A DNA stretch of 31,724 nt. It comes from a virus. A model generated the notes under the pieces. The model did not search any database. It was not told the DNA's origin and saw only the letters and a list, made by a program, of their open reading frames with translations. This document shows positions 1 through 30,304 of this stretch, in pieces; position 1 is the stretch's first letter; every line of letters starts with the position of its first letter. Both the position numbers and the translations under genes were made by a program. The stretch spans positions 1 to 31,724 of the IMG/VR virus record IMGVR_UViG_3300009161_000155; one strand, 5' to 3'.

Positions 1-36
1 CCCGGGCGCTACCCCGGGCGCTACCCCGGGCGCTGC
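1..36 (+). repeat. Three tandem 12-bp repeats at the left edge
   Basis: The unit CCCGGGCGCTAC occurs twice and is followed by a third copy ending GC instead of AC. The array is in frame with the large reading frame that follows and encodes Pro-Gly-Ala-Thr units. It may continue to the left of the window, so the true copy number is unknown. Confidence 0.9.
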
Positions 37-2812
37 GCCGGTAGACTTGCGGAATTTAACCCGTTCCCCATCTTCAAACGGTGGTTCAGCATTAGTGCCT
101 ACTAACTTTTCTAACATTACTGCTCCAGTTGTGCGGGACAACCCGTATGCAATGCCTGCCGCCCCGGTTGCCCGTGCCGAGGGAAGCCCTGAAGAAGGCG
201 AAAAGCCCTTGAAAGATAAGATTGCAGGGTGGGTGCGGGAGACGGAAAAAACGGTTAGTAAGCCGTTGGGGTTGATGGAGATTCGCAGTTACGCCTCTAA
301 CCGTCCGAAAGAGTTGGGGTTAAAGGGCGAAGTAGGTGGAGGAGCGGATGCAATGAGGCACCTGCTTTTAGCGCGTGAGTTGCGGACCAAGTACCCTAAC
401 ACGGCAGGGGGCATGTTGTGGGCGCACGAAGCTATTGCGTCAAATCCTATTTTGCCGTGGCAATCGGACAAGGAGTATGCGCAGGACACCCACAACAATG
501 ATTTGGCAAAGCGGTTGATGGAAGAAAATCCGCAGGCCACGCGGGAGCAGTATGAAAAACGTGCGTTGGAGTCAATTCGTTCTGGGGAGGCCCAATCAGG
601 GCTAACGGAAAAAGACCTCAGATACCGTGCGGGTGGGAGCCCTGAAGAGGGTGAGCGGTCCATGGGCGATAAGCTGAAGGGCTATGGCGAGACGGCGGCA
701 AGTTTGCTCTCGGGCCTTGGCGCGAGCGTCCCGGCCGGGTATTCGGGGCTTGTAGAACTGGCGCGGACGCGTGATCCGGAGAAGGCGGCGGAGGAAATCA
801 GCCGTAGGCAAGCGGCCATGACCTATGAACCACGAACCGCGTCTGGAAAGAAGTCGACAGAGAGTGCGGCGGCGTTGTTGGAGAACCTGAATATTCCGGC
901 GCAATATGTGGGGGGCAAGGCATTTGAAGCCAGTGGGGAATCGCCCTTGGCGGGTGCGGCGGCGGAGACCCTGCTTGACCCGTTGAATTTTATTCCCGGT
1001 GCGAAGGCAATAGGAAAAGGAGCCAAAGCTGTGGGTAAGTCGCTTGCTCCAACAGCGGGTCGTATGTTGGAGAATCATTTAGAGCAACTTGGTATGGGGC
1101 CGATGTACGCGGTCAAACCCTACAAGGGAACTTTTGCGCGTAACTCGCCGGAGTTTTTGGCCAGCAAAGAACACCCTGACCCCTTGCGGCTTCCTGACGA
1201 TGACTATGTATCCAATCTTGAAAAGTATTATGCAAAGGCCCGTCAGCAGGTAAAGGACGCTGGTGGAGAGTTTCAAGAAACAACCCCTGCACAAAAACAA
1301 GCTATGCAGGAGTTTTATGCGGATAAGGTAATGCCCTACTTTGAGGAGTTGCATGGCACCTTGAGAGACCCTGTTTTTGAAAGTTTGATGGAGGGTCGAA
1401 TAACGCCGTATGGTAGATCAGCCGCTGAAGGAAATTTTAGACCGTACGCGATTAAAGCAGCAAAGCGTAAGACGGCACAGCAGACCGGGTTTCGTTACCC
1501 CGCGGACCCGGACGCTTACACAGACCTTACCAATCGCTATGATACCGCTACTGGGTTGACGCCGACGCTGTATTACACAGGCGAACCCCATCTGATCGAA
1601 TCAGCAATTAAACAAAACCCGTTAATTGCACCTAAAGAGGGTGGAGGCGTTAGTACCTTGGAAGGAGAGTTTATACCAACCAAAAAGTGGGATAAAGACA
1701 AAGCATCGCAGGTGGAAAGAAGACGAACAGCTGATTTTATTAGTGGGCAACTAACAAAGCAACAGGAAGCGTTGTCCCCCCAGCTTCGGAATCAAAACCT
1801 GAACCCCCCGGGAGAGGGAAATTATCATGGTGGGGTAAATTTAAAGGAGCCCGGTAATCTTAGTTCTTATTCGGACAAAGAAGCTAAAATTGCGTTGTCC
1901 GACTTGGAAAGAAAGCTATCCGGCGAACCGGCTACCGAGCTTCGCCAGAATCTCAATCCGATTGAGTGGGCAAAAAACGTGTTGGCAAAGACTCCCGAGA
2001 AAAACAAACAGGGATACAGCGTCTCGGACAAGATGCTTGAAGCAATGACCAGAAATGAACCGGTGTGGGACATTGGTAGCTCAACACGGGAAGCTTACGG
2101 CGCGTTGAATTTCTTGTCTCCGGAACACCTCAATGACTACATGCGGACGTTGTCCCCGGAGAAGATTAAAGAAACGCCTTTTGTACGAATGGTAGAAGAG
2201 TCCTCAAAATATCAGGTGTATAAGTCGGGGGTAGATCAGCTCGTAAAGGACATAAAAGCAGGAAAAGGTGTGGACCCCAAAGTGTTTTCTAACGGGGTGT
2301 CTGAGCCCGTAAAAACTTACGATGACGGGTTTCGTTGGGTTAAAGCTAATGACGAATCCGCGCTCAAGTTAAATGGAACGTCTATTGGCCATTGTCTAAC
2401 CTCGGGTGCCCGAAACTGTTCCTTGAGCGGTGAAGCAGGCGGAACGGGCCGTAAAAGTTTTGATAACGGGGACACCGAGATCTATTTCCTGCAAGATGCG
2501 CGTGGGGTTCCGGTGACCACGTTGGAGGTCATTAATGCTAAAGACCCCACCAAGAGGACAATTTCTCAGACCAAGGGCAACGGGACAAAGACGGGGGATA
2601 CGGCTCCGGTTGATTACGACAGCATGGTTTATGACCTTGCAACACAACTCAACCCGGTTAGGATAATTGAAGGCGAAAGATATCTGTCCCCCAGCATGCA
2701 GCAGTTGCAAAAAGCACTGCGTACTCCTCCACCACTTCCACTTAAAAGAGGGGGCGCGGTGAGCGCGGCCCGTCTCCTGAAAGAAATGCCAAGGACACAA
2801 CATGCCTATTGA
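2..2812 (+). CDS. Large mosaic virion-type protein with PcfJ-like C-terminal region (5' partial)
   Basis: The frame is open to the left edge, so the protein is probably truncated there. The first possible start inside the window is TTG at 47, giving 921 residues; numbering below uses that start. Upstream codons read Pro-Gly-Ala-Thr repeats. The sequence looks mosaic. RAEGSPEEGE (43-52) recurs as RAGGSPEEGE (194-203). Around 101-151 there is D-x2-R-H and then D-x-H-N-N (147-151), a pattern seen in other phage proteins. TYEPRTASGK near 260 resembles a segment common in phage internal proteins. The C-terminal part (about 765-880) has GHC at 781-783, then IYFLQDARGVPVTTLEV and ISQTKGNG. This order matches the PcfJ-like domain of phages and plasmids, whose biochemical role is not settled. 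The stop overlaps the portal start by 11 bases. A virion or packaging-linked role is inferred from position only. Confidence 0.75.
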   Translation, partial: PGATPGATPGAAPVDLRNLTRSPSSNGGSALVPTNFSNITAPVVRDNPYAMPAAPVARAEGSPEEGEKPLKDKIAGWVRETEKTVSKPLGLMEIRSYASNRPKELGLKGEVGGGADAMRHLLLARELRTKYPNTAGGMLWAHEAIASNPILPWQSDKEYAQDTHNNDLAKRLMEENPQATREQYEKRALESIRSGEAQSGLTEKDLRYRAGGSPEEGERSMGDKLKGYGETAASLLSGLGASVPAGYSGLVELARTRDPEKAAEEISRRQAAMTYEPRTASGKKSTESAAALLENLNIPAQYVGGKAFEASGESPLAGAAAETLLDPLNFIPGAKAIGKGAKAVGKSLAPTAGRMLENHLEQLGMGPMYAVKPYKGTFARNSPEFLASKEHPDPLRLPDDDYVSNLEKYYAKARQQVKDAGGEFQETTPAQKQAMQEFYADKVMPYFEELHGTLRDPVFESLMEGRITPYGRSAAEGNFRPYAIKAAKRKTAQQTGFRYPADPDAYTDLTNRYDTATGLTPTLYYTGEPHLIESAIKQNPLIAPKEGGGVSTLEGEFIPTKKWDKDKASQVERRRTADFISGQLTKQQEALSPQLRNQNLNPPGEGNYHGGVNLKEPGNLSSYSDKEAKIALSDLERKLSGEPATELRQNLNPIEWAKNVLAKTPEKNKQGYSVSDKMLEAMTRNEPVWDIGSSTREAYGALNFLSPEHLNDYMRTLSPEKIKETPFVRMVEESSKYQVYKSGVDQLVKDIKAGKGVDPKVFSNGVSEPVKTYDDGFRWVKANDESALKLNGTSIGHCLTSGARNCSLSGEAGGTGRKSFDNGDTEIYFLQDARGVPVTTLEVINAKDPTKRTISQTKGNGTKTGDTAPVDYDSMVYDLATQLNPVRIIEGERYLSPSMQQLQKALRTPPPLPLKRGGAVSAARLLKEMPRTQHAY

Positions 2813-5123
2813 CAAAGCATTAAATGAAGTTGAGTCGGGCAACGCCCTTTTGCTGGGCGAAAGCATGCCAGACGTTGAGATTATTCTGGAGGACGACGGC
2901 GGGGCGACGGTAGGGCTTCCGGAAGAAGAACTTTTGTTTGAAGCAAACCTTGCGGAAGTTGTTGACGAAGGTGAGCTTGGCCATATTGCTTCGGAATTGT
3001 CGACGCTTTTTGATGCTGACAAGACCTCGCGCGGGGAGTGGGAGCAACAGTATTCCAAGGGCCTTGATCTGTTGGGCTTTAAATACGAGGAACGCACCAA
3101 GCCGTTCAAGGGCGCTGCCGGGGTTGCGCATCCGCTGCTCTCGCAGGCGATTGTGCAGTTCCAATCGCAAGCTTACAAAGAGCTGATGCCCGCCGAAGGT
3201 CCTGTGCGCACGCAAGTGCTGGGCAAAGAGACTAATGACAAAATGCAGCAAGCCGAGCGCGTGCGGGATTTCATGAACTACCAGCTTACGACGGTGATGG
3301 AAGAGTACACCCCGGAGATGGATCAGGCGCTTTTTTACCTTGGGTATGGCGGTTCGGTGTTCAAGAAGGTGTATTACGACTACCACCTTGAGCGGATGGT
3401 GAGCAAGCTGGTATTGCCAGATGACCTGTACATCCCGTATAGCGGCTCAAGTGTCATGAGCCAATGCTCACGAATCACGCATCGCCTTGCAATGAGCGAA
3501 AATGACTACCGCAGACGTGTTTACAGTGGTGAATACCTTGATTTAGACCTAAAACCAAGCGCGCAACCGGCTATTCCGGACCAAATTGGCGAAAGAGTTG
3601 ACAAAATATCGGGTATTTTGCCTTCCAGTGAGACAGAAGAGCTGTTTTTCCTTGAGTTTCAGGTGGATTGGGACCTTCCGGGGTTTGAAGATGAGGATGA
3701 ATCGGGTGAACCCACAGGAATTAAGCTTCCCTATGTGATCACCATTGAAGAAAGCCAAAACAGGGTGGTTTCTGTGCGCAGAAACTGGGACCCAGAGGAT
3801 GCTAAGAAACGCAGGAAGCAGTATTTTGTTCATTACGTGTTGATCGAGGGCCTTGGTGCGTATGGCTTGGGTTTTGTGCACCTGATTGGAGGTCTTTCGC
3901 GGTCCGCGACAAGTGCTTTGCGTCAATTGATTGATGCGGGGACGTTGGCCAACCTGCCCGCGGGGTTCAAGGCCAAAGGCGCACGGATCATGAACGACGA
4001 TGTGCCGTTGCAACCGGGTGAATGGCGGGATATGGATGCCGGGGGTGCGGAACTGACGAGCCAGATGTTGCCAATGCCGTACAAGGAGCCTAGCCAGACG
4101 CTATTCCAGCTGTTGGGGTTCTGTGTAGAGGCAGGTCAGCGGTTGGCAAACACGGCGGACATGGCCGTGGGCGATGGAAATCAATACGCTGCGGTTGGAA
4201 CGACGATTGCGTTGCTGGAACGCGGGTCAATGGTGATGTCTTCGATTCACAAGCGTCTGCACTACGCGCAAAAACAAGAATTTAAGATGTTGGCGGCTGG
4301 GTTTGGGCAGTTCTTGCCTGACGAATACCCGTATGACGTTCCCGGGGCATCACGGACGGTCAAGAAAAAAGATTTTGACGACCTGATAGCGGTATTGCCT
4401 GTTGCTGACCCGAACATCTTTTCTTCAGCGCAAAGAGTGACCCTAGCCCAGACGCAGTTGCAGTTGGCGCAAAGCGCACCGCAAATGCATGACATGTATC
4501 AAGCATACCACCGGATGTACTCGGCGTTAAATGTGCGGGATATTGATGCAATTCTAAAACCACAAAACGTCCAGCACCCAAAAGACCCTGCAACAGAAAA
4601 CTCCGAGGTATTGGAAGGTGCTCCGTTAAAAGCGTTTGCTGGTCAGCAGCATGATGCGCACACGGTGTCGCATCTGATACAAGGTTTTTCGCCGATGTTG
4701 CAAGCTAATCCGGCCGCTGCCGTTAGGTTGCAGCAGCACCTCTTGGAGCACATGCGGTTGAAAGCGGAAGAGCAAACCGAAGCAGAATTGTTCAAGCAAT
4801 ACGGTAAAGACCCTAAAGACTTGATTTCTGCGTTGCAGAAAGAAGGCATGATTGCGTTAAAGATTGCCCAGTACATGCAAGATATCAAGGAACTTCAAAC
4901 CAAGTTGCAAGGCGATCAAAGTGACCCGTTGGTCTCGTTGAAAGAAAAAGAACTTGGGATTACTGAAGCATCTAACAAGGCTGATGAAGGATTGCAACAA
5001 CAAAAGCTCATGATGGATGCGCAGGAAGAGCAGGCCAAGATTGTTTCACAGGAAAAAATTGCAATGTTGCGGGCACAGCCCCCTTTTAGAGGAAATCCGA
5101 ATGCCACTCAAAACAGGCAGTAG
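2802..5123 (+). CDS. Portal protein
   Basis: A 773-residue protein that fits the portal of podovirus-like phages, the dodecameric ring at the head vertex through which DNA is packaged and leaves. Evidence: its length, its position before the scaffold and capsid genes, and a conserved block at about 99-142 (KPFKGAAGVAHPLL followed by QAYKELMPAEGPVRTQV). After this come DQALFYLGYGGSVFKKVYYD and a segment with LPDDLYIPY, as in other phage portals. The C-terminal 150 residues are rich in Gln, Lys and Glu and probably helical. ATG at 2802 follows AAGGAC and overlaps the preceding gene, which suggests translational coupling. The terminase is not in the window and is probably upstream. Portal identity is strong; the exact subfamily cannot be fixed by eye. 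Confidence 0.88.
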   Translation: MPIDKALNEVESGNALLLGESMPDVEIILEDDGGATVGLPEEELLFEANLAEVVDEGELGHIASELSTLFDADKTSRGEWEQQYSKGLDLLGFKYEERTKPFKGAAGVAHPLLSQAIVQFQSQAYKELMPAEGPVRTQVLGKETNDKMQQAERVRDFMNYQLTTVMEEYTPEMDQALFYLGYGGSVFKKVYYDYHLERMVSKLVLPDDLYIPYSGSSVMSQCSRITHRLAMSENDYRRRVYSGEYLDLDLKPSAQPAIPDQIGERVDKISGILPSSETEELFFLEFQVDWDLPGFEDEDESGEPTGIKLPYVITIEESQNRVVSVRRNWDPEDAKKRRKQYFVHYVLIEGLGAYGLGFVHLIGGLSRSATSALRQLIDAGTLANLPAGFKAKGARIMNDDVPLQPGEWRDMDAGGAELTSQMLPMPYKEPSQTLFQLLGFCVEAGQRLANTADMAVGDGNQYAAVGTTIALLERGSMVMSSIHKRLHYAQKQEFKMLAAGFGQFLPDEYPYDVPGASRTVKKKDFDDLIAVLPVADPNIFSSAQRVTLAQTQLQLAQSAPQMHDMYQAYHRMYSALNVRDIDAILKPQNVQHPKDPATENSEVLEGAPLKAFAGQQHDAHTVSHLIQGFSPMLQANPAAAVRLQQHLLEHMRLKAEEQTEAELFKQYGKDPKDLISALQKEGMIALKIAQYMQDIKELQTKLQGDQSDPLVSLKEKELGITEASNKADEGLQQQKLMMDAQEEQAKIVSQEKIAMLRAQPPFRGNPNATQNRQ

Positions 5124-5505: not shown

Positions 5506-5513
5506 GCTATTAC

Positions 5514-7150: not shown

Positions 7151-7153
7151 ATC

Positions 7154-7664: not shown

Positions 7665-7675
7665 GGAGAATTTCA

Positions 7676-8248: not shown

Positions 8249-8250
8249 TC

Positions 8251-10127: not shown

Positions 10128-10130
10128 TAT

Positions 10131-10610: not shown

Positions 10611-10625
10611 ACCAAGGGGTCAAGA

Positions 10626-11147: not shown

Positions 11148-11161
11148 TTTAGGGGAATCAC

Positions 11162-11347: not shown

Positions 11348-12024
11348 TGACCACATCTGGAACAACCACGTTCGATTTGGACGTGGACGAACTAATTTCC
11401 GAAGCGTTTGAACGCTGCGGTCTTCAAGTTCGTGCGGGCTATGACATAAAAACGGCTCGTCGATCCCTGAACCTTATGTTCTTGGACTGGGCGAGCCGGG
11501 GCCTTAACCTCTGGACAATTGAACAGCGCACCTTGGCCTTGGTGGCGGGGACTTACGAATACACCCTGCCCGCGGACACGGTCAATGTGCTGGAAGCCGT
11601 AATCAGATCTACATCAAACGGCGTGCAAACCGATATTACGTTGAACAGGTTTAGTCGAGCCGAGTGGTTGCACACCCCAGTCAAGGTGGCTACGCAATCG
11701 CGCCCGGCGCAGTTTTACGTAGAACGAACAATTAGTCCAAAGGTGTACTTTTACCCGAATCCGGATTCGTCAACGACCTATACCTTTGTGTATTACGCGA
11801 TTCGTAGGGTTCAGGATGCGGGCAGCTATACGAACACGATGGACATCAATTTCCGGTTTTTGCCGTGTTTGGCTTCCGGATTGTCGTATTACATAGCAAT
11901 GAAGCGCGCTCCAGACCGCATTGTTATGTTAAAACAGATTTACGAAGAAGATTTCCTGCGCGCGGCGCAAGAGGACAGGGACATCGCAAGCGTTTATCTG
12001 GTCCCTGACCGGACGATGTTCTAG
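11347..12024 (+). CDS. Head-tail adaptor / tail tubular protein A-like
   Basis: A 225-residue protein of a type found in many podoviruses at the position of T7 gp11 (tail tubular protein A), the ring that docks under the portal. Recognisable segments: LISEAFERCGLQVRAGYDIKTARRSLNLMFLDWASRGLNLWTIEQ (14-58), GTYEYTLPADTVNVLEAVIR, a YFYPNPDSSTTYTFVYYAIRRVQDAG stretch, then FRFLPCLASGLSYYIAMKRAPDR and YEEDFLRAAQEDRD. The start is coupled to the preceding stop by TAATG. The family is confident; which neck layer it forms is inferred from T7. Confidence 0.82.
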   Translation: MTTSGTTTFDLDVDELISEAFERCGLQVRAGYDIKTARRSLNLMFLDWASRGLNLWTIEQRTLALVAGTYEYTLPADTVNVLEAVIRSTSNGVQTDITLNRFSRAEWLHTPVKVATQSRPAQFYVERTISPKVYFYPNPDSSTTYTFVYYAIRRVQDAGSYTNTMDINFRFLPCLASGLSYYIAMKRAPDRIVMLKQIYEEDFLRAAQEDRDIASVYLVPDRTMF

Positions 12025-17879: not shown

Positions 17880-19712
17880 ATGCCTTTAACAAAAGTTGCC
17901 TTTGCTGCGGGCATCGACAAACAGGATTCGAAATACGGTGCTGAAGGCCGTTGGATCAACTCAGACTATGTTCGCTTTCGGTATGGACTTCCGGAGAAAA
18001 TAGGGGGTTGGACTGCGTTTTTGTCGGGTTACAATTTGATTGGCGTGGCACGTGATACGTGGGCATGGAATGATTTGGATGGAACTCCTTACCTAGCGGT
18101 GGGGACCAATAAAAAACTTTACGTGTATAGCGGGGGCATTTTTGCGGACATCACGCCGATTCGGGTTACAAATGCAGGTGTAGTCATCACCCCGACCAAT
18201 GCGACCACGGTAATCACTGTAACGGACGTTGCACACGGCGCTTCGGTAGGCGATTTTGTGACGTTTTCCGCTACTTCGGTAGCGTTTGGCGGTTTGACAG
18301 CCTCGTTTTTTGACATTGAGTATGAAGTTCAAACAGTCCCCACCGTGAACACCTACACCGTCAAGTCCCCTTTAACGCTGTTGAACAGCACCCCGGGGAC
18401 CGCAACAATTGCCTATCAGTTGGCAATTGGCACAGAAACAGCCATTGCTGATTACGGCTGGGGTACGGGTACTTGGGGTACGGGTACTTGGAACACCCCA
18501 CGCCTTAATGTCAAGACCCTCAACCCAAGGCTCTGGGCTTTGGATAATTTTGGTGAAAATCTGATTGCTTGTGCCAGTGAGGGCAAGGTATATGAATGGC
18601 CTCCGAACCTCAGTAATCGTGCAACGGCAATATCCAATGCTCCTACAAAAAACTTGTTCGTGTTGGTTTCTACTCCGGACAGGCATTTAGTGTGCTTTGG
18701 AACGGAAGAAACCATTGCAACCCCAGCCACGTTTGACCCAATGCTTGTGCGATGGTCTGAGGCAGAAGATGACACAACTTGGGTAGCAACTGCTACTAAT
18801 ACGGCGGGCTCGCAAAGGCTAACCGATGGCAATTACTTGTCTACGGCAATTCGTTCACGGGGACAATTACTGGTCTTCACAGACAATGCGCTTTATGGCA
18901 TGCAGTTTTTGGGGGTTCCTTACACTTTCGGGTTTCAGCAGCTGGGAACCAACTGCGGGTGTTTAAGCAATAACGCGGCAGTGGACGTTAATGGGGTGGC
19001 CTATTGGATGTCCCCCGATGCGTTCTTTGTATTTGATGGAACAGTTAAAAAGGTGCCCTGTTCTGTGCAGGATGCGGTATTCCAAAACTACAACTACACG
19101 CAACGCTCGTTGATTTACTGTGGCCTCAACACCGAGTTTAACGAAGCCACGTGGTTTTATCCGACCTTGAATAGCAACGTGATTGATGCCTACGTGACCT
19201 ACAATTACTTGGAAAACTGCTGGTCTCAGGGGACAATGGCCCGCACGACGTGGCGGGACAGGGGGGTTTATCAGCTGCCGATTGCAACGGAATGGGCTCC
19301 AAATAGCACGACGAATGCGTATCCTTCCGTTTCGGGTTTGACGGCGGGTGTGTCTATTGTCTACTCACAGGAAGTGGGGGCAAATGGTAATGGCAATGCG
19401 ATCAGCTCGTTTGTTGAATCCGCCTTCTTCGATCTAGTGGATGGCGACGACATTTCCTTTGTCAAACGGATCGTTCCCGACTTTTCAAATCAAGTTGGGA
19501 CGTTGGATTTCTACGTGGTGTCCCGTGCGTTTGCCGTGCCCCCGGATCAGGTCAGTTCCTTGACGCCATATTCTTTCACTTCGACGACACAGAAAATTGA
19601 CACGCGGATCAGGGGCCGTGCAATTTCGTTGAAAATAGAAAGCAGCGCGGTTGATGACACGTGGCGTCTGGGATCAATCCGACTGGACATCCAGCCGGAC
19701 GGGAAACGATAG
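17880..19712 (+). CDS. Tail nozzle-like / tail tubular protein B-type structural protein
   Basis: A 610-residue beta-rich protein of a type common in podovirus-like phages: AGIDKQDSKYGAEGRWINSDYVRFRYGLPEKIGGW (10-44), then GVARDTWAWNDLDGTPYLAVGTNKKLYVYSGG, LWALDNFGENLIACASEGKVYEW, TPDRHLVCFGTE, and MQFLGVPYTFGFQQLGTNCGCLSNNA. The strands are consistent with a propeller-like nozzle such as T7 gp12 or P22 gp10, the lower tail tube. Residues about 105-181 (TNATTVITVTDVAHGASVGDFVTFSATS...) look like an inserted beta module related to that in the protein at 10131. GWGTGTWGTGTW (193-204) comes from a 15-bp DNA repeat at 18460-18490. The nozzle role is inferred from size, family memory and context. 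Confidence 0.7.
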   Translation: MPLTKVAFAAGIDKQDSKYGAEGRWINSDYVRFRYGLPEKIGGWTAFLSGYNLIGVARDTWAWNDLDGTPYLAVGTNKKLYVYSGGIFADITPIRVTNAGVVITPTNATTVITVTDVAHGASVGDFVTFSATSVAFGGLTASFFDIEYEVQTVPTVNTYTVKSPLTLLNSTPGTATIAYQLAIGTETAIADYGWGTGTWGTGTWNTPRLNVKTLNPRLWALDNFGENLIACASEGKVYEWPPNLSNRATAISNAPTKNLFVLVSTPDRHLVCFGTEETIATPATFDPMLVRWSEAEDDTTWVATATNTAGSQRLTDGNYLSTAIRSRGQLLVFTDNALYGMQFLGVPYTFGFQQLGTNCGCLSNNAAVDVNGVAYWMSPDAFFVFDGTVKKVPCSVQDAVFQNYNYTQRSLIYCGLNTEFNEATWFYPTLNSNVIDAYVTYNYLENCWSQGTMARTTWRDRGVYQLPIATEWAPNSTTNAYPSVSGLTAGVSIVYSQEVGANGNGNAISSFVESAFFDLVDGDDISFVKRIVPDFSNQVGTLDFYVVSRAFAVPPDQVSSLTPYSFTSTTQKIDTRIRGRAISLKIESSAVDDTWRLGSIRLDIQPDGKR

Positions 19713-20250: not shown

Positions 20251-22467
20251 ATGGCTAACGAAGGCGTAATGAATCTTTCGCAGGAGCAACCGATGCAGGG
20301 TTCCCCTGCGGGTGTAATGGGCCTTCCGCAGGCGCAGCCGATGCAGGGCGCGCCTGCTGCTCAAAAACCTCAGTTTGTGTCTAGCGCAGATGCGTATGAC
20401 GCTGCCCAGACGGCGCTTTCGCGGGTTGCTCCGCAACAGCTTGCGCAATACAAGGCGCAGATACGTCAGGCAATAGCAAAGCTTAACCCCACGCCAGAAC
20501 AGATCGACTCGATGATCACGCTCTTCGAGTATCTAAACCAAAACAAGGGCCAGTACAAAGAAATCATAGCGCAAGCGATTCAGGACGGGGATTTGAACGA
20601 AGGGGACCTCCCGCCTGAATACAATCCGGTGATTATCGGCGTTGTGCTGTTGATTTTGCACGAGTTAAAGGATCGCCAAGGTGGCGTGATGCAACCCCCG
20701 CAAGGCATGGCGGGGGGTGGGATTGCGGACATGGCGCAGCATTTGCAAGGCCAAGGTAGGCACGGCGACAGCATCTTGGCGCACATCAACCCGGAAGAAG
20801 CTCGACTGCTGCAACAACGCGGGGGTATGGGTTCAGTTAATCCCTACACAGGCCTTCCGGAATTTGGGCTTTTTAGTAGCTTAGTCAAAAGCGTTAAGGA
20901 AGTTTTTCAACCCGTCGTAGACGTTGCTAAAGATATCATTTCTTCCCCCGTTGGCCGGATCATCGCCACCGTTGCGTTGACCACGATCCTCGGACCTGCT
21001 GCTGGCGCGGCTACGGGTGTTCTTGGTGTTGGCATGGCGGGCACGGCAGCAGCGGTCAGTGGTGGTCTAACCCTGCTCGGAGGCGGGAGCCTTAAAGACG
21101 CCTTGATCAGCGGCGCTACCGCCTATATTGGAGGGGGCGGAACTGTGCTCGGTTTTAGCCCGAGCGACTACATACAGAATGCGTTGCCCGGCGGAGCGCC
21201 TTCGTGGTTAGGCAAGGGTTTGACTGCGGGATTGACAGGGTCGACGGCGGGTCTTTTGTCGGGGCAAAGTGCTGGGCAGGCTTTGAAGTCCGGATTGCAA
21301 GCGGGTGCGACAAGTGCTGGAATAGCCGCTCTTCAGGGGCAGTCTCCTGCTGCGGCCGCGCCCGGTTCCAACGCCCCGACCGCGCCCGGTTCCAACGCCC
21401 CGACCGCCGCCGACCCCAACAGCGCAACATCTCCGGTTGCTTCTGTTGCTTCTGTTGCTTCTGTTGCTCCTGTTGCATCGGCGGACACTCAAGGAACTAC
21501 TAATGGGCCCTTGACTCCGTATAAAGACGGATTCACCAAGCTTCCTTCCATGACTCCCGGCCTAGCCACAGAAGCTCCTCCAGTACAGCCTTCTTTTGCG
21601 GACAGGTTTGCGGGCAACCCCTACGATACGACCATGGATTACTTAACACGGGGCGGAAAAACTGCCGACATGGTCCAACAGGAACAGCTTAAAGCGGGAT
21701 CGGATGCTTTAAGCAAGCTTCCACCTAATACGCCTGCCGCGGTACAACAAGAGGTATACAAGAAAGCCTACGATGCTGCTGGTCCGGGGATGCTCAAAAC
21801 ATACGGCCCTGCGCTGGGTATTGCTACGCTAGGAGCACAACTTACAGGAGCAACGAAGCCTTACACCCCGAACCCCCAACCGCTCGCGCCGCAGTGGGGC
21901 ACGGGTTCCCAGACGGGGCAGGCCTATATGGATGCTCATCCAGAAATGTTTGGGAACTGGAAGGGTTGGAATAATCCGGGGGCCGCTCCACAAATGCAAA
22001 ACCCGGTCAACACTCCCGGGCCGCAACCTCTTGCAACGGTTTTGCCTTACACTATTGCGCCGAATGCGCCTTCTAATTATGTGGCGGGCTCAACCATTCC
22101 GCAACCGTACAATTTGCCCTATTCAGTCTTGCCTACAAAAAGGTACAATGTGGGTGGGACCGTAAATGACCCCGATACCGCTGGGGGGAGTATGGTGCCC
22201 ACCATGACCAACACCTTCTCAAATGGGGGAGGAATGGGTTATGCCGCCGGAGGAACTTCCCCGAGCTACCCTCGTCGCAATGGCGAAATAAGCGGATCAG
22301 GCACGGGCACTTCCGACTCGATACCCGCGATGCTTTCAGATGGCGAATTTGTGCTGACGGCGAAAGCCGTTCGAAATGCGGGCAATGGTAGTCGACGCGA
22401 AGGAGCAAAGCGCATGTACAAGCTCATGCACATGCTTGAGCGCGGCGGAAACGTAAAGGAAGCATAA
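20251..22467 (+). CDS. Large internal-virion/ejection-type protein with SDSIPAMLSDGEF C-terminus
   Basis: A 738-residue protein with AAGGAA before ATG 20251. The N-terminus is repetitive (QEQPMQGSPAGVMGLPQAQPMQGAPA). Helices follow to about 115, then MAGGGIADM (153-161) and HGDSILAHINPEEARLLQQRGGMGSVNPYTGLPEF (171-205), a motif shared with the protein at 23995. Residues about 236-278 are a long hydrophobic Gly/Ala segment (IIATVALTTILGPAAGAATGVLGVGMAG) that could insert in a membrane. The middle is Ala/Pro/Ser low complexity. The C-terminus (about 687-738), GTSDSIPAMLSDGEFVLTAKAVRNAGNGSRREGAKRMYKLMHMLE, is a widespread phage motif of unknown role. Membrane-insertion potential and position suggest a DNA-ejection protein, but this is inference. 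Confidence 0.72.
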   Translation: MANEGVMNLSQEQPMQGSPAGVMGLPQAQPMQGAPAAQKPQFVSSADAYDAAQTALSRVAPQQLAQYKAQIRQAIAKLNPTPEQIDSMITLFEYLNQNKGQYKEIIAQAIQDGDLNEGDLPPEYNPVIIGVVLLILHELKDRQGGVMQPPQGMAGGGIADMAQHLQGQGRHGDSILAHINPEEARLLQQRGGMGSVNPYTGLPEFGLFSSLVKSVKEVFQPVVDVAKDIISSPVGRIIATVALTTILGPAAGAATGVLGVGMAGTAAAVSGGLTLLGGGSLKDALISGATAYIGGGGTVLGFSPSDYIQNALPGGAPSWLGKGLTAGLTGSTAGLLSGQSAGQALKSGLQAGATSAGIAALQGQSPAAAAPGSNAPTAPGSNAPTAADPNSATSPVASVASVASVAPVASADTQGTTNGPLTPYKDGFTKLPSMTPGLATEAPPVQPSFADRFAGNPYDTTMDYLTRGGKTADMVQQEQLKAGSDALSKLPPNTPAAVQQEVYKKAYDAAGPGMLKTYGPALGIATLGAQLTGATKPYTPNPQPLAPQWGTGSQTGQAYMDAHPEMFGNWKGWNNPGAAPQMQNPVNTPGPQPLATVLPYTIAPNAPSNYVAGSTIPQPYNLPYSVLPTKRYNVGGTVNDPDTAGGSMVPTMTNTFSNGGGMGYAAGGTSPSYPRRNGEISGSGTGTSDSIPAMLSDGEFVLTAKAVRNAGNGSRREGAKRMYKLMHMLERGGNVKEA
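21358..21405 (+). repeat. Two identical 24-bp tandem repeats
   Basis: Units at 21358-21381 and 21382-21405, each starting GCGCCCGGTTCCAACGCC, encode APGSNAPT twice in the low-complexity linker of the 738-residue protein. Confidence 0.88.
21436..21480 (+). repeat. Five 9-bp tandem repeats
   Basis: GTTGCTTCT three times, then GTTGCTCCT and GTTGCATCG, encoding Val-Ala-Ser/Pro units in the same linker. Likely a slippage-prone length-variable stretch. Confidence 0.85.
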
Positions 22468-22470
22468 AGC

Positions 22471-23973
22471 ATGGCAACCGCGCCCACTTCAGTATCGCAG
22501 CAGATAGTAAGCGAATCACCTGAAGTTGAAGCCTATAAGCTCAACTTACTTAGAAACGCTTCTAATCTTGCTTACAACACCGATGCGTACGGCAATCCAG
22601 CTGCTCCGTTGGCCTCGCAACTCCCGCAATATCAAATTGCGGGGTTTTCTCCAAGCCAAACAAGCGCCCTAAACGCCGCAGCTAATACAGGCATAGGAGC
22701 GTTTGCTCCATACGTTAATCAAGCCCAAAGCAATCTGACTCAAGCAACAGGGGCTACACAAGAGGCCGCGGATATCGCCCGTGGATCAGATACCCGCGGT
22801 CAGTTCGCCGGTGCACAACAAGCCATGCAAGGAGCGGGTCAAGCTGCTGCCAACATCAACAGCGGAATTGGTGGTGTTGCGGCGGGCAATAACATGCTTG
22901 GGCAAGCCAATACGCTGGCCAATCAGTCGGCTACCGCTAATCTGGACCCTGCGAAAGCGGCCATTACACAAGGCATTGGCGGTCTTGGCCAAGCAGCGGG
23001 GACCGTGCAGGGCGCTGTTGGAACAATAGCCTCGGGCCAAGGTCAGTACGACCCGAATAGCGCTGCGGCCTACATGAACCCCTACACCCAGCAAGTGCTG
23101 CAAGCGCAGCTGGGGGAGATGAACCGGCAGTCGCAAATGCAACAGCAGGCCAACACGTCGCAGGCCACTAAGGCGGGCGCGTTTGGGGGGGACCGTGCAG
23201 CGGTTCAGCAGGCGGAAACTCAACGCAACAACACGCAATTGCAAAACCAAGCCATTGCCAGTGCCTACGGACAGAATTATTCGCAAGCGCAGCAAGCGGC
23301 CATGCAAGCATACGAACAAGGTCAACAGCGCAATCTGGCAGCAGGTCAAGCGACCACACAGGCGGGGCAAGCGCTGTCCGGGATTGCCGGGCAACAGGGC
23401 CAGTTGGGGCAGGGCCTTGGTTCGTTGGCCATCAACAACGCGCAGTTGGGTCAAGGTGCAGCCAATATCCTGAACCAAGGGGCATCCACCGCGGGCAACT
23501 TGGCTGGCCAGCAGGGCAATATCTACGCGCAACAGGCTTCTGCCGAGCAGGCGTTGGGTCAAGGTATCGGCTCGTTGGCCGCGCAGCAGTATGGTATTGG
23601 CCAGAACATGGCGACGACGATGGGTACTTTGGGTGGTCAGTTGGGCAACTTGGGTGTTCAACAAGCAGCATTGGGCCAGACGGCACAGCAGATGAACTCG
23701 AACGACATCAACATGTTGTATAACGCGGGTCAGACGCAGCAGGCGCAGAATCAGCAGGTGTTGGACGCAAACCGGGCAAACACGCTACAGCAGGTGTATG
23801 CACCTTACCAGCAGGCCGGGTTCCTGTCGGACATTTATAAGGGTGCGCCTTCGTCCCAGATGTCGACATCGGCTGCAAGCTCGCCGACGGCGAGTCCGTT
23901 TATGCAAGCGGCGGGAGTAGGGATCGCGGGGATTGCAGCGGCTTCTGGGGCTAAAAAAGCAGGTCTTTTTTGA
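22471..23973 (+). CDS. Gln/Ala-rich internal-virion-type protein
   Basis: A 500-residue protein, extremely rich in Gln, Ala and Gly, predicted mostly helical. AAGGAAG precedes ATG 22471. The family signature is YMNPYTQQVLQAQLGEMNRQSQMQQQANTSQATKAGAFGGDRAAVQQAETQRNNTQLQNQAIASAYGQNYSQAQQAAMQAYEQ (starting about residue 202), common in podovirus-like phages next to ejection-type genes. The second half repeats LGQGLGSLA / GQQGQLGQG-like units about every 20-30 residues. The C-terminus (PFMQAAGVGIAGIAAASGAKKAGLF) is a short hydrophobic Gly/Ala segment. Probably a tail-internal or DNA-ejection component; no enzymatic motif seen. Confidence 0.72.
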   Translation: MATAPTSVSQQIVSESPEVEAYKLNLLRNASNLAYNTDAYGNPAAPLASQLPQYQIAGFSPSQTSALNAAANTGIGAFAPYVNQAQSNLTQATGATQEAADIARGSDTRGQFAGAQQAMQGAGQAAANINSGIGGVAAGNNMLGQANTLANQSATANLDPAKAAITQGIGGLGQAAGTVQGAVGTIASGQGQYDPNSAAAYMNPYTQQVLQAQLGEMNRQSQMQQQANTSQATKAGAFGGDRAAVQQAETQRNNTQLQNQAIASAYGQNYSQAQQAAMQAYEQGQQRNLAAGQATTQAGQALSGIAGQQGQLGQGLGSLAINNAQLGQGAANILNQGASTAGNLAGQQGNIYAQQASAEQALGQGIGSLAAQQYGIGQNMATTMGTLGGQLGNLGVQQAALGQTAQQMNSNDINMLYNAGQTQQAQNQQVLDANRANTLQQVYAPYQQAGFLSDIYKGAPSSQMSTSAASSPTASPFMQAAGVGIAGIAAASGAKKAGLF

Positions 23974-23994
23974 CCTAACATTGGGAAAACAGGC

Positions 23995-26469
23995 ATGAAA
24001 TCCAAAGTTCTTGATCGTCCCATGTTCCGTGGTGCATTGCGCCCGGATATCGACAATATTGGCATCATGCAGGGGTTCATGGACCCCGGCTCTTCGGGGG
24101 ACATGGAGGAGACGCCCGATGACCTTCAGCCCTCGCAAAATGACGAGGACATGGAGGCATCCCACATGGCGGATCGCCGCCCGGGTTCGCCTGAAATTCT
24201 GATGAACACTCTTCGCGGCGACATGCGGTCTGTCGACGCTCGATATAAAGAGCTTGCGGACCTCTTTGGCCCCGCTGTGGCGCGTGATACACCTGAAGAG
24301 GTGCTGGCACTGCTACAGCCTGTTTTGGCTGGTTCCAAGGAGGGTATTGGAGCACTCCCCGAGGCACAAGCATTGCCCGGTATGACACCTGTTCCTGTTC
24401 CTGCTCCCGCTCCCATTCCCGGTGGTATGCCGCCCCCGCCCGGAAGTATGCCCCCCTTTCCGGGAGCCGCGGCCCAAGGGCCACAAGGCGCACCCGGGCC
24501 TTTTCCGTCGGCCCCTAACGCGGGTGCAGCCCCGGGTCAGGGGCCTGCTCCGGTAGGTATGGCAGGTGGTGGGGATGCCGGGATGGTGGCGAATGCGGGT
24601 CGTTTTGGCGATTCGCAGTTGGCCTACTTGTCCCCCGATGCCCGTCAAATGCTGGTGGATCAAGGCGGTTCTGGGACGATTAACCCCACCACAGGGCTGC
24701 ATGAGTATGTGGGGTTGGACACGCTTGCAAAGCTGGGGAGGCTGGGCTATGGGGGTGTTCGCGATGCTGCGGGGGCTATTGGCGGTGGGCTGAAAAGTGC
24801 TGGGGACTATATTGGCACACAGGCACAAAAGGGTGTGGACGCTTTGTATAACTCTCCCTTGGGACCAACGGCTGGGCGCGTGGAAAACGCGATACAAGAT
24901 GCGAGGGCGGGGGTTAACAGCTATGCTGCTAAGAACCCTATAAAGGCATACGGCGGTGCAGCAGGAACAACGGCTGTTGGCGGTGCCGCTGCGCTGGGGT
25001 TGGGCGGACCTCGGCCCACGGAAGTCACGCCTATGGCAGTCCCGCCTATGGCAGTCCCGCCCCCGGAAGGGCCGGAAAGCTCTAACCCTCCGGGCTTGGA
25101 CACCACACCCCGGGCAGTCCCGCCCCCCGGTCCGGCCGACGGTCAGGACCCCGCAACCACTAGGCCTCCAGTGGTCTCCCCCGCAAAAGCGGGTGATGGC
25201 ACCAACGACTTCTTGAGCCGCACCAACAAGCGGTTTGGGGAGTTGAAGCAGGCGCTTACTTCGCCCGAGGACAAGGACTGGATGCAGGCGCAGGCGCTGT
25301 TCCTTCTTGCGGATGCGGCGTTGAAGATTCCCTCGGCGGGTGGGCGCACGCCGCTTGAGACTATTTCTCGTGCAGGTGCTGGCGATCCGGCGGGTCTTGC
25401 CGCATTGGGTGCACAGCAGGCAGGCAAGGAAACGAAGATTCGTGCTGCCGCAGCCGAGCAGGTGCTGGGTGAGCAGTCTGAAGAGCGTAAGTTTGAGAAA
25501 GAGCGGGATGTCGCACGAATACGTGCTCTTGTTTCGCAAGCAGAAAAAGACCGTCCTTATCAAGAGCTTTTGGCAAGTGTACGCGTGTCACACCCCAACT
25601 TAAATGCGCAACAACAGGGGAACATGGCAATGGGTTTGCTTAACAAAACACTTGTTGTTGGGACAGACCCCGACGGTGAACCCGCGCTTGTAAACACGCT
25701 TAAGCCGGGAGAGTTTTATTCTTCAGGAGTTAATGTTCCCAAACCCGGAATGGTGGGTTTTATTGACAACGATAACCCCTTGGCCAAGCCTGTTCAGCCG
25801 CTTAATCGCGCTCCTACGGCCGATAGGCCGAAGATTAGAGAAGAAATACGGGCGTCTCAGGATGTTGTTAGGAAGATCGATGACGTATTGGGTGGGGACT
25901 TTGCAAAGGCGTTTGGTCCCGGCGAGTATTTCAGGGCCGTAGTGGGGGGTGTAACCCTCCCGTTGTTTGGCACTAACGCCCCCGGTGCGAACGTCATGAC
26001 AGATGACAAGGCCAGCGCTAATAGACAACTTTCTAAGGCACTTCAGCGCTCGGTAGCGGCGGGTGGGAGCAGGGTTTCTGTACAGGAACAAAAAGAGATT
26101 GCAACATGGCTAGTAAACCCGGGAAACTTTTTTACAGACCCAACGCTTGCTTTTGCAATTACTAACCGAATAAAAACTGATGAACTAAACTCCATTTCAG
26201 ACGGCTTTAACAGGCTCTATCCGGATCAATATTCGGCGCGTCGGATTGATCCAAATGCCCCGATTGGAATGACCGAGGGTACGGCCTTGAACGTGATGGA
26301 CACAAAGACGTTACGGATACTGGCTGAAGTGGCCAAAACCGCTCCGGGGTATCAACCCTATGTGACGAGCGGGCCGGGCAAAAAAGCGGAACGGATAACG
26401 GACCTTCCGGCGTTTATGGCACAAGAGGGAATCCAGAAACGTCTCAACCCCCAGCGAGGAGCGCAATAG
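23995..26469 (+). CDS. Pro/Ala-rich internal-virion-type protein sharing a motif with the 738-residue protein
   Basis: An 824-residue protein. ATG 23995 has only a weak upstream AGG; ATG 24022 is an alternative. Residues 1-120 are acidic and helical. A Pro-rich linker (130-188, PVPVPAPAPIPGGMPPPPG) leads to MAGGGDAGM (189-197), then FGDSQLAYLSPDARQMLVDQGGSGTINPTTGLHEY (204-238). This aligns without gaps with 171-205 of the protein at 20251 (16 identities in 35). Another Pro-rich stretch lies near 340-390. The C-terminal half (from about 400) is charged and helical, with TNDFLSRTNKRFGELKQAL, an ERKFEKERDVARIRALVSQAEKDRPYQELL coiled-coil region and a globular end. Likely an internal-virion or ejection protein by context; no catalytic motif recognised. 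Confidence 0.68.
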   Translation: MKSKVLDRPMFRGALRPDIDNIGIMQGFMDPGSSGDMEETPDDLQPSQNDEDMEASHMADRRPGSPEILMNTLRGDMRSVDARYKELADLFGPAVARDTPEEVLALLQPVLAGSKEGIGALPEAQALPGMTPVPVPAPAPIPGGMPPPPGSMPPFPGAAAQGPQGAPGPFPSAPNAGAAPGQGPAPVGMAGGGDAGMVANAGRFGDSQLAYLSPDARQMLVDQGGSGTINPTTGLHEYVGLDTLAKLGRLGYGGVRDAAGAIGGGLKSAGDYIGTQAQKGVDALYNSPLGPTAGRVENAIQDARAGVNSYAAKNPIKAYGGAAGTTAVGGAAALGLGGPRPTEVTPMAVPPMAVPPPEGPESSNPPGLDTTPRAVPPPGPADGQDPATTRPPVVSPAKAGDGTNDFLSRTNKRFGELKQALTSPEDKDWMQAQALFLLADAALKIPSAGGRTPLETISRAGAGDPAGLAALGAQQAGKETKIRAAAAEQVLGEQSEERKFEKERDVARIRALVSQAEKDRPYQELLASVRVSHPNLNAQQQGNMAMGLLNKTLVVGTDPDGEPALVNTLKPGEFYSSGVNVPKPGMVGFIDNDNPLAKPVQPLNRAPTADRPKIREEIRASQDVVRKIDDVLGGDFAKAFGPGEYFRAVVGGVTLPLFGTNAPGANVMTDDKASANRQLSKALQRSVAAGGSRVSVQEQKEIATWLVNPGNFFTDPTLAFAITNRIKTDELNSISDGFNRLYPDQYSARRIDPNAPIGMTEGTALNVMDTKTLRILAEVAKTAPGYQPYVTSGPGKKAERITDLPAFMAQEGIQKRLNPQRGAQ

Positions 26470-26470: not shown

Positions 26471-29400
26471 ATGGCAATTACGATGCCGGGGGGTTACCAG
26501 CTCGATCTGGACACGGGAAAAGCAATTACCCAAGAAGGCGGTCCGCGGCCTCAAGCTGCGGATACCGAATTCAGCCCATCAATGGACAACATTCTTGGCG
26601 TCCTGAAGCAGACCTCCGTTGGCTTTCAAGCGGGGTTGTTTGCTGCGCCTGATTACGTCTTGCGTAAGCTTGCCAAAGGCCTTGGAGGGACCGAAAAAGA
26701 CGCTTTCCAGCTGACCAACCTTTACCAAGATGTTGCAGGCCCCGAGACCTCCCCCCGTAATGTCGTTGAGCGCTATGCCAAGACCATCGGCGATATGGTC
26801 GGCTCGAACGTGGGAATTTCTTTTGGAATCTTGCGCCCATTGGCTCAGACAGGGCTTCTTGCACAAGTCCCGCAAAACGCTGGAACATTTAAAAAGATCG
26901 CAGGCAGCATCATGAAAGACCTGCGCGATAACCCCGTCGGGGTGCTCAAGACCGACCTTAAATGGGGCGGAATTTCGGGGGCGACCGAACAAGCCATCAA
27001 CGAAACAAAAGCCCCGGGAGAAGCGAAGACCCTTTTGGAATCGTTGGCCCCGGCTGTTGCGCCGTTGGCCCTTGAATTATTGCCAACCAACCTTATCCGC
27101 AGGGGCCTTACGGCTGGAAGACAAGCCATTTCAAGTGGAAGCCCAGTTGCTACCGCCGCGCAAGCTGCGTTGGCTCCCGGTGCAGGAAGTATTGCTCCGG
27201 AAATTGCTGCGGGTTACCCGAGGGGCACCCAAACCGCCGCGCAGCTGGTGGCTAAACTAGCCGAGAAAAAGGTGGGTAGTTCGCTTGAAGCCCTGCAACC
27301 GGGGGGCGCGGGGTTCACGCAGCAAACACGTCTGGCACAGGAAACCGCGGATCGTCTCATGCAACGCCCGGAGTTCGCGTTCCTTGGCAACCTCACCCCG
27401 GCAGAGCGCGCCCGTCATCCGGCGGTGCTCGCGGCCCAAGCGGCGGGTGGGGCTCGGTTGAGTGGTCAAATGGCAGCGGACGAGATTGCTCGCCAGCAGG
27501 GCCTTGAGGCCTCTTTCCAGCAGTCTTTGCGTGACCTCGGACCCAATGCTCCGGCAACATCGCTGGAAGCGGTTCTGCGCGCGACCCGCGACTCAATGTC
27601 CAGCGGAGAGATGGGGCCGCTGTTCGCCAAAGGCCATCAGGAGATCACGCTTCCCGGCACGACGCCTCTTTATAGCCAAGCACAAGCGGGGGACCTCAAG
27701 CGCCAGACTCTCCAGACGCGGTATGGCGAGATGGACACGCGAGTCAACGATCTATACAACTCGGTTAACACACGCGACATACGGATCGATCCGGAGGCCT
27801 TGGGCCAAACGAGAATGATCGATGACGAGGGAAAAGCTTTTGAAGAAGCCCCACTTGAAGGAACATTGGCGAGTTTTGTTCAAACCGTGGAACGTGAGGG
27901 TTTTGTTCCGCTCACCTCGTCAACATCTCCGACCAACATCCTTCTTTCCGGTGATCTCACTCCCGCTACTTTGAAGGGGCTGAACCGTATCAAGTCCATG
28001 TTGCCGCAAGCTGCGGAAGAAGGCGTGGAAGGCGCAGCAGGTGCCGTGGCTCAAGAAGCACGGACCGCTCAGCTAAAGAGCATGAGCGCGGCCTTTAATC
28101 GAGGGGTAAACGATAAGCTTATTGAGCCCACCTTTATTGAAAGCTTTCTAACGCTTCGTGATACAGGTGCCACGCAAACTAAAAAGCTGTTAAACACCGT
28201 CGAGGATTTGGATGGTTTTCTGGTAAACCGTATCCAGTCGTATGGAATGCCTTTTTCCCGTGATCAACGGTCTTTCAGGCAAATTGCAGAGGCTCAAAAA
28301 CACAAAAAAATTACGGCGTTGGATACACAGCTTAATAAGCTTCGAGGGTCCACGCAACGATACATTGCCGATTATGTTGCGTTCCAAAAAGGTTCACAAC
28401 GCATTGATGAAACGCAACTAGGCCGAAGCTTTGAAAAACTTCAAAAAGAAGCTTTAGGGGTTAAAAAGTTTCGGGATTCGGATTTTCCGCGCGGACCCAT
28501 TGAGGTCACTCCACCTAAGTATGGCGAATATACTTTTGGCGGACAAAAAACCGCAGCAAAAGCAGACGATGTCATACCCGAAGAACCCAATGAAATCTTT
28601 CTTCAGGATTTTGAGCGCACTCGTCGGGAGCTTTCCATGCTCTACGGTGCTGCGAAGAATCCGCAGGATGCGCGTGGCGTGGCCCTGCTCAAAAAAGGCC
28701 TTGATGAGTGGTTCGAGGGGGCCGTTGACAATGGATTTATTAAAGGTGAGGCGGCCGATCTAGCCACGTTGGCTGAAGCACGCGAGTTGCGAAAGACCGT
28801 TGGCGATATCTTTGAACCACGCAAGGGTTCAGAACAGTCGGGCAACGCCATGCAGGAAGTCCTGCATAACCGCGAATTGAATGCCAATCAGGTACTGGAT
28901 AAGCTTTTTAATTCCTCTGGGGTTCCTTCAAAGGGAGTGGCCACGGAAGTTGCGCGTCGTTTTGAACAGGCGTTTGGTAAGGATTCCCCGGAGTTTGCAA
29001 ACCTCCAACAAGCGGCCTACTTGCGCGCGATGCAGACCCCGAGCGGCACGGTGCTTCCCGCAGCGCAGGCCGGAAAGAATCTGGACATGTTGCTTACTGG
29101 CGCGGGGCAGGAGTTTACGCAGCGCGTATTCACCCCTGACCAGATCAAATCCCTGATGACGCTTCGAGGCAATGTTGCGCAGGTCGCAGCGGACACCGTT
29201 GATGTGCAGCTGACCGCGCTGATCAAGAATGCAACGCGCGAGGGCGCGGATGCAGACCAGCTGATCAAGCAGGCCTTGAAAAACCCCGCCGACATGCGGT
29301 CCTTGGCAAATGCCTTTGGCAAGGACCCCGAGCAAATGGAGGCCTTGCGGCGTCGGGTCTGGGATCAACTAGGCCGGGATAAAGTCGTCAACACGGCCGA

Positions 29401-30304
29401 TGGCATCGAGAACTTCCTCAAGCAAAACCAGAAGTCCTTGAGCATGCTGTACACCCCGGCAGAAATGAATACCCTGCGAGACATTGCCGACGCGCAAAAA
29501 TACGTGTATGCGTCGGTTCGGGTACAGGGAATGTTGCCCCCCGGGAGTACGTTGGATGATTACTTGACCAGAGAATTCGGCACCACAGTGCGTGGTATCT
29601 CAACAACAATCCGTAACGTAGGCCAAGGTCGTGGTGGAGTGCCTGATGCCTTGACGTACTTTGGCATGCGGTTCTTCAACACGCGTCAAGAAGACATCTA
29701 CGCCAAGGTTTTGCAAAAGGCGCTGACCAACAAGGACTACGCCGACTACCTTTTGACAACAAGACCCACCCCGTCGGTTCTTCAACAACTTGGCGCGGGG
29801 GCAGCGCAGAGTGCGCAATCCCTTCAACTGGGCACACGTCTCGCCGAGGGTGCGGGCAACCGCGCATACCAGCTTGCTCGCACGTATGGACTTGAAGAGC
29901 TTCGTGGGGATGATAAACGGCAGCGAGAATTGACATTGCCCATGTCCCCTGACGTGAAAGCACGGGTCGAGGCCCAACAGCCTACGGCAAAAGAACTGCT
30001 TGCGCGGCAGCTTCCGCAACCAAGCGTGGTTAAACCTCCCCCTCCTGCGCCTGCAACAACGGGTGTACCGAACCTGATACCACCGAGCACGGCGCAAGGA
30101 CCACGGCCCATGGGGCAAATGCCGGGCAAGCCTGCGACGAGTCAAGCTCCGGGGCCCGCGGCTACGCAGAGCAGGGCGATGTATCAGGCTCTTTTCCCAC
30201 CGGGGCCCGCGGCTACGCAGAGCAGGGCGATGTATCAGGCTCTTTTCCCGAGAGACCCTGTGTCGACGATGCTACAACAGCAACAACAAGCTCAACCGCA
30301 GTAA
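26471..30304 (+). CDS. Very large helical internal-virion/DNA-ejection-type protein
   Basis: A 1277-residue protein, the longest in the window, starting two bases after the preceding TAG with GAGGAG upstream of ATG 26471. It is mainly helical. An early hydrophobic stretch (about 107-140, TIGDMVGSNVGISFGILRPLAQTGLLAQ) and an Ala/Leu region (about 190-245) are followed by long charged helices, e.g. FLQDFERTRRELSMLYGAAK and LATLAEARELRKTVGDIFEP. The C-terminal 130 residues are Pro/Gln-rich and end with a duplicated 17-residue peptide, GPAATQSRAMYQALFPP/R, then DPVSTML and a poly-Gln tail. No lytic transglycosylase or protease signature was found. Size, helicity and the place at the end of the structural genes match ejection proteins such as T7 gp16, but sequence kinship to gp16 is not seen. 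Confidence 0.68.
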   Translation: MAITMPGGYQLDLDTGKAITQEGGPRPQAADTEFSPSMDNILGVLKQTSVGFQAGLFAAPDYVLRKLAKGLGGTEKDAFQLTNLYQDVAGPETSPRNVVERYAKTIGDMVGSNVGISFGILRPLAQTGLLAQVPQNAGTFKKIAGSIMKDLRDNPVGVLKTDLKWGGISGATEQAINETKAPGEAKTLLESLAPAVAPLALELLPTNLIRRGLTAGRQAISSGSPVATAAQAALAPGAGSIAPEIAAGYPRGTQTAAQLVAKLAEKKVGSSLEALQPGGAGFTQQTRLAQETADRLMQRPEFAFLGNLTPAERARHPAVLAAQAAGGARLSGQMAADEIARQQGLEASFQQSLRDLGPNAPATSLEAVLRATRDSMSSGEMGPLFAKGHQEITLPGTTPLYSQAQAGDLKRQTLQTRYGEMDTRVNDLYNSVNTRDIRIDPEALGQTRMIDDEGKAFEEAPLEGTLASFVQTVEREGFVPLTSSTSPTNILLSGDLTPATLKGLNRIKSMLPQAAEEGVEGAAGAVAQEARTAQLKSMSAAFNRGVNDKLIEPTFIESFLTLRDTGATQTKKLLNTVEDLDGFLVNRIQSYGMPFSRDQRSFRQIAEAQKHKKITALDTQLNKLRGSTQRYIADYVAFQKGSQRIDETQLGRSFEKLQKEALGVKKFRDSDFPRGPIEVTPPKYGEYTFGGQKTAAKADDVIPEEPNEIFLQDFERTRRELSMLYGAAKNPQDARGVALLKKGLDEWFEGAVDNGFIKGEAADLATLAEARELRKTVGDIFEPRKGSEQSGNAMQEVLHNRELNANQVLDKLFNSSGVPSKGVATEVARRFEQAFGKDSPEFANLQQAAYLRAMQTPSGTVLPAAQAGKNLDMLLTGAGQEFTQRVFTPDQIKSLMTLRGNVAQVAADTVDVQLTALIKNATREGADADQLIKQALKNPADMRSLANAFGKDPEQMEALRRRVWDQLGRDKVVNTADGIENFLKQNQKSLSMLYTPAEMNTLRDIADAQKYVYASVRVQGMLPPGSTLDDYLTREFGTTVRGISTTIRNVGQGRGGVPDALTYFGMRFFNTRQEDIYAKVLQKALTNKDYADYLLTTRPTPSVLQQLGAGAAQSAQSLQLGTRLAEGAGNRAYQLARTYGLEELRGDDKRQRELTLPMSPDVKARVEAQQPTAKELLARQLPQPSVVKPPPPAPATTGVPNLIPPSTAQGPRPMGQMPGKPATSQAPGPAATQSRAMYQALFPPGPAATQSRAMYQALFPRDPVSTMLQQQQQAQPQ
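30149..30250 (+). repeat. 51-bp direct tandem duplication
   Basis: 30149-30199 and 30200-30250 are identical except for the last base (A or G). Each copy encodes PGPAATQSRAMYQALFP near the end of the 1277-residue protein. It is in frame and adds exactly 17 residues. Confidence 0.92.

Follow-up and report, generated by a model that had tools for sequence, protein, structure and literature searches.

Two large putative virion proteins, encoded close together in the stretch of viral DNA analysed here (31,724 nucleotides, hereafter the window), carry copies of the same short module, which is without a name in Pfam, PHROGs, the PDB or the literature searched. We favour, tentatively, the possibility that this module serves for docking or sorting, as a transferable tag on proteins that the virion stores and that exit with the genome via the portal and tail.

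The module and its copies in the window

The two carriers, protein A and protein B, and the elements compared in them are as follows.

20251..22467, plus strand: protein A, 738 aa, putative ejection protein of tape-measure-like type, syntenic in about 75 loci, obligatory module carrier
20707..20721, plus strand: MAGGG linker of A, an element of the MAxGG family that also occurs apart from the module
20761-20865, plus strand: module copy 1, aa 171-205 of A, LAHI-PxEA type (profile E 3.7e-22; tree)
23995..26469, plus strand: protein B, 824 aa, facultative module carrier, N-terminal domain common to orthologues
24559..24573, plus strand: MAGGG linker element of B, MAxGG family
24604-24708, plus strand: module copy 2, aa 204-238 of B, LAYLSPxAR type (profile E 5.5e-19; tree)

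A preliminary description of this DNA had aligned residues 171-205 of A with residues 204-238 of B without gaps (16/35 identical). The alignment is reproduced exactly, and of the span given for it, 20661-24708, the end is exact but the start precedes the first MAGGG by 46 nt. The best ungapped BLOSUM62 segment between the two proteins extends over 58 residues with a score of 106, against a mean of 49 (sd 7) and a maximum of 85 in sixty shuffles. A profile made from about 100 module copies of other phages, with both window copies left out, finds the copy in A at 73.8 bits (E 3.7e-22) and that in B at 63.7 bits (E 5.5e-19), whereas the top profile scores among 1000 shuffles per protein were 6.2 bits (A) and 5.9 bits (B). 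Judged by sequence, the similarity between the A and B copies is real homology. DNA identity across the 35-residue stretch amounts to 57/105, so the two copies did not arise by a recent duplication of DNA.

The consensus of the module is GRxGD[ST]xLAHxxPxEAxxLxxxGGSGTxNPxTGLPEF, with a core of about 42 residues, and the family core GR-GD-xLA-...-GG-G-x-NP-TG is present in both window copies. Among 148 distinct copies, the columns G-R, D, a Leu, N-P, T-G and a Glu are conserved at 99-100%, and the GG-G-T columns at 91-95%. Profile searching, which had been proposed as a check, returned hundreds of phage matches that are not of low complexity, and the module is encoded by at least 590 viral contigs. 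In essence it is restricted to phages, given that a scan of 84,980 bacterial and archaeal genomes found only 12 loci; the isolate Kiloniella litopenaei has one of these in a contig, and the others come from assemblies that are uncultured or derived from metagenomes. With the consensus as query there was no match in Pfam; PHROGs holds no family for the module, the best hit (E 0.0043) being an endolysin profile over its second half and the helical flank; no match among PDB sequences was better than E 0.99; and a literature search with the module's own letters found no paper. A divergent family, GRxGDSMLVHMNPxEVxxL...TxNPQTGQPE, is found mostly at the N terminus in contigs L164-L186. Elsewhere the module is doubled inside one protein (L155, 474-2924) or present in two adjacent genes (L196, 6910-9380).

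The MAGGG sequence had been described as standing ahead of each copy and as belonging to the shared module. The first part is correct, but in orthologues MAxGG behaves as a separate element: 69/69 longer B orthologues have it, whether module-bearing or not, and it precedes 149/157 internal module copies at short distance as against 1/48 N-terminal copies. MAGGG was accordingly rejected as part of the module, as B orthologues keep it where the module is missing and N-terminal module copies do without it. At the module's place most B orthologues (L225-L304) have a second unnamed element, MAxGGYVQNFQxGSDExGVTP. MAxGG resembles the GG-x site of an adenain-like protease, and cleavage there is a matter of speculation.

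The module lies in or beside flexible Pro/Gly/Ala-rich linkers, with no confidently predicted fold of its own. In A, modelled by AlphaFold with 54 aligned A sequences, the module has a pLDDT of about 52-66 and a helix at 181-189; in B the values are about 60-70 and the helix falls at 214-222, that is, at module positions 11-19 in both copies and with low confidence. The two models are not fully independent because the B alignment contained A-type fragments. Structure prediction for each segment, another proposed check, thus gave a common short helix, albeit of low confidence, and not different folds. The models fit a peptide that would fold upon binding, and the invariant G, R, D, L, GG, NP and TG columns likewise fit a binding peptide.

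Carriers of the module

Further elements of protein A are:

20383..20685, plus strand: N-terminal helical domain, aa 45-145, five helices, AlphaFold pLDDT about 88-95
20866..21024, plus strand: predicted helices after module copy 1, aa 206-258, partly amphipathic and basic (AlphaFold)
22300..22353, plus strand: tape-measure-type motif GTGTSDSIPAMLSDGEFV near the C terminus (tape-measure PHROGs; PDB 8zdo, 8rk3)

Helices 206-231 and 233-258 have pLDDT values mostly of 75-93. Compared with PDB folds, the A model, most of which is of low confidence, gave no match at E<=0.001. The tape-measure motif (SDSIPAMLSDGEFV) lies within the last 60 residues of A and is matched by tape-measure PHROG families at E 8e-9 and weaker. 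A profile of the C terminus finds 8zdo (1.9e-12) and 8rk3 (3e-6) in the PDB, and phages Douge and JBD30 have tape-measure proteins that match the motif. This common C-terminal motif points to A as a tape-measure-like ejection protein; its sequence suggests a podophage ejection protein partly related to siphophage tape-measure proteins, which would place A between these two classes. The motif, written as G-GT-SDS[IV]PA-LS-GEF[VI], stands about 45 residues before the C terminus in A and in the C-terminal part of siphophage tape-measure proteins. A short helix follows GTGTSDSIPAMLSDGEFV at the end of A. The module and the motif have a faint pattern in common, D[ST]xxAx[IL]xxxE; homology between them was rejected on a profile comparison (E 0.14, probability 0.4%), and they are two different elements of A.

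The likeness to JBD30 bears on one alternative function, namely that the module is a processing site: a protease of phage or host would cut in or beside GG-G-T-x-N-P-x-T-G and so free the N-terminal part at head maturation or ejection. Cleavage of the C-terminal domain of the JBD30 tape-measure protein has been proposed at residue 1066 (PMC11445458), and the motif common with A occupies residues 1021-1055 of that protein, just ahead of the proposed cut. The module also falls in linkers of low confidence, with a folded N-terminal domain on one side and a helical region on the other, its Gly and NP residues are strictly conserved, and at the extreme N terminus, where it is often found, a cut would take off a short leader. 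Yet about 35 conserved residues including a helix are far more than protease sites usually comprise, and the JBD30 site adjoins the tape-measure motif and not the module, so that we regard processing as quite unlikely.

The setting of A and B is defined by the following neighbours.

17880..19712, plus strand: protein N, candidate neighbour, virion structural (stabilisation) protein (phrog_3287, E 5.5e-87), conserved upstream of A
22471..23973, plus strand: protein C, 500 aa, Q/A-rich DNA-ejection protein between A and B (phrog_4287, E 4.7e-7; syntenic homologues)
26471..30304, plus strand: protein E, 1277 aa, large last cassette member (same-position homologues L018, L031, L046, L088)

The order N - small genes - A - C - B - E is kept in many contigs. 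Homologues of protein C, which is rich in Q, A and G, vary in internal repeats and long insertions. The closest annotated phage is DSL-LC04, an unclassified lake phage for which a new family has been proposed (PMC10611076), and its gene at the place of protein E is annotated as a DNA transfer protein. Gene order and PHROG matches suggest that the source phage is short-tailed. From their adjacency to the phrog_4287 gene and the DNA transfer neighbour in DSL-LC04, we infer that A and B are ejection proteins.

Further carriers, though only sporadically so, are giant proteins encoded beside the portal gene, and a homologue of these is cut by the end of the contig.

2..2812, plus strand: giant protein, C-terminal 936 aa (cut at the contig end), directly before the portal gene; in relatives the module lies near the N terminus
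2802..5123, plus strand: portal protein (phrog_1216, E 1e-36)

The window giant is homologous to module-bearing giants of L199, L092 and L133, with E values between about 1e-29 and 1e-26, that for L199 being 2.7e-29 (phmmer); its homologues have 1296-1649 aa, the window piece 936 or more. Its C-terminal domain is conserved in the giants of relatives, and a DUF6973-like stretch scores 14.4 bits, below the cut-off, in the window giant and above it in two relatives. The contig does not reach the N terminus, the site of the module in relatives, and a third copy may therefore exist beyond the window. We infer ejection for B and the giants alike from gene position and neighbours.

Copies per genome were counted, as had been recommended: among 50 whole contigs, six have a second copy in a second protein, beside the TerL/portal genes. 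Five of the six proteins concerned (519 aa, truncated at a contig end, to 1822 aa) are encoded directly after the terminase gene, with the portal gene just beyond in four of these five and off the contig in G014; the sixth, in G027, follows just after the portal. In G043-G045 the protein between terminase and portal holds the only copy or copies, and about a dozen long proteins in the terminase-portal interval are without the module.

In genomes of siphophage type, module-bearing tape-measure proteins are found in L195, with a Tape_meas_lam_C region and matches to several tape-measure PHROGs, and in L100 (phrog_3779, E 1.5e-42). The L195 protein (5193-11900) is of siphophage type and 2236 aa long, and its module comes shortly after a GERGPELFVP tape-measure motif. 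Overall, about a quarter of module copies are N-terminal.

The copy in protein B and its origin

A single-protein search with B found no relatives in viral contigs; an alignment of its N-terminal domain succeeded as query.

24172..24330, plus strand: conserved N-terminal domain of B, aa 60-112 (SPEILMNxLRGDMRSVDAR...), unnamed

This domain (SPEILMNNLRGDMRSVDAR...TPEEVLALLQ) is highly conserved, with at least 384 matches in viral contigs. Loci with A and B orthologues were sampled through it and hence without selection on the module: the B sample comprises the best 80 of the 384 matches, some of its B genes being incomplete (an earlier set had 36 loci), and A orthologues were scored at the loci found through B. 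The module was present in 73/73 complete A orthologues and in 3/80 sampled B orthologues (L294, L297 and L304). Two copies in neighbouring ejection-type proteins, the observation with which the preliminary description began, are therefore a true but rare arrangement.

These counts weigh on another reading, that the module is an element of self-association or channel assembly and that the copies in A and B pair to build a trans-envelope conduit. Two members of the cassette do carry it, and in A it directly precedes helices (aa 206-363) which, in the model, might line a channel or enter a membrane. Against this, what follows the module in the giants and in short N-terminal carriers is low-complexity sequence and not such helices, and with 77 of the 80 B orthologues lacking the module, A-B pairing through it cannot be general. 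We consider self-association unlikely.

The window copy in B sits where most B orthologues have the MAxGGYVQNFQ-type element. In a tree of 78 rows and 42 columns this copy, of LAYLSPxAR type, clusters with copies of the giant type (support 98/92), and the A copy falls among LAHI-PxEA copies. When further B copies are added, those of L294, L297 and L304 form a group of their own and the window B copy remains with the giants. The two window copies thus probably derive from different module lineages. Because the B copy groups with those of giant proteins and not with that of A, it is probably a graft and not a local duplication.

If the similarity were instead the leftover of a local duplication of the A linker into B, it would call for no common function. 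The genes for A and B are near neighbours, with that for C between them, and in both proteins a MAxGG linker stands just ahead of the module. But the B copy is nearest to giant-protein copies (71% over 42 columns, against 16/35 identical to that of A), key columns are kept in both window copies, and the B proteins of L294, L297 and L304 carry another module subtype. An AU test of the A and B copies as one clade gave p=0.079, so that on a tree of 42 columns a common local origin is disfavoured only. Identity and tree together speak against duplication of the A copy into B, and we hold a remnant of this kind, without common function, to be very improbable.

A possible address for ejected proteins

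In the docking or sorting reading that we favour, the carriers, A, B and the giants, would be packed in the virion and ejected with the genome. The module would fold on binding to a common element of the portal, the internal core or the tail lumen, and once bound would recruit or hold its carrier for ejection. In the source phage, B would have gained a second copy, probably from the module lineage of the giant proteins. The types of carrier, namely ejection-type, tape-measure and portal-adjacent giant proteins, fit a common docking or sorting site and so support the docking idea suggested at the outset; the points that differ from the preliminary description are the rarity of two copies in neighbouring ejection-type proteins, the place of MAGGG outside the module and the probable origin of the two copies from different lineages. 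As further proteins that are probably injected bear the module in relatives, it resembles a reusable label for proteins accompanying the genome. It is not needed by every putative ejected protein, as about a dozen giants at the same position and 77 of the 80 B orthologues do without it.

Attachment to envelope-crossing proteins, whether of tape-measure or of ejection type, would also suit a module that binds a host envelope component after ejection, such as peptidoglycan, a membrane protein or a lipid. However, the bacteria to which module-carrying contigs have been binned are very diverse, among them Verrucomicrobiota and several classes of Pseudomonadota, and a conserved phage partner accounts more simply for the constancy of the sequence; we consider host binding improbable.

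A broader form of the docking reading holds that one mobile tag with a common virion partner admits podophage ejection proteins, siphophage tape-measure proteins and giant predicted effector proteins to the channel. We regard this as possible but rather doubtful; if true, phage protein delivery would have a general cargo label in this module. To our knowledge, how proteins are chosen for packing and injection with phage DNA is largely unknown beyond a few models. The module, obligatory on A and optional elsewhere, provides a searchable mark for candidate injected proteins in an abundant group of uncultured phages, and it offers a direct test of an address label for ejection.

Address or docking signals of virion-packaged proteins have precedents as a kind. 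The capsid-targeting sequence of phage T4, a short stretch common to unrelated proteins, sends these into the virion. The module may be compared with it as a sequence that works alike; it is longer and Gly-rich, and the window copies, which start at aa 171 and 204, do not have the N-terminal position of the T4 type. That phages pack and inject large multidomain proteins whose genes lie near those of the virion is an established prediction, set out for the polyvalent proteins (Iyer et al. 2017, PMC5512222). The module-bearing giants resemble these in size and in their neighbourhood of virion genes, and two have DUF6973 above the cut-off; the passages of that paper covered here do not describe the module. 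Podophage ejection proteins exit before the DNA (PMC12633501). In Pfam, A, B and E have no detectable sequence homology to the ejection proteins of T7, P22 or N4. The likeness is one of arrangement: as with T7 gp14/15/16, P22 gp7/16/20 and N4 gp50-52, the window has several large proteins beside virion genes, in a cassette that includes a DNA-ejection PHROG and a last member of 1277 aa.
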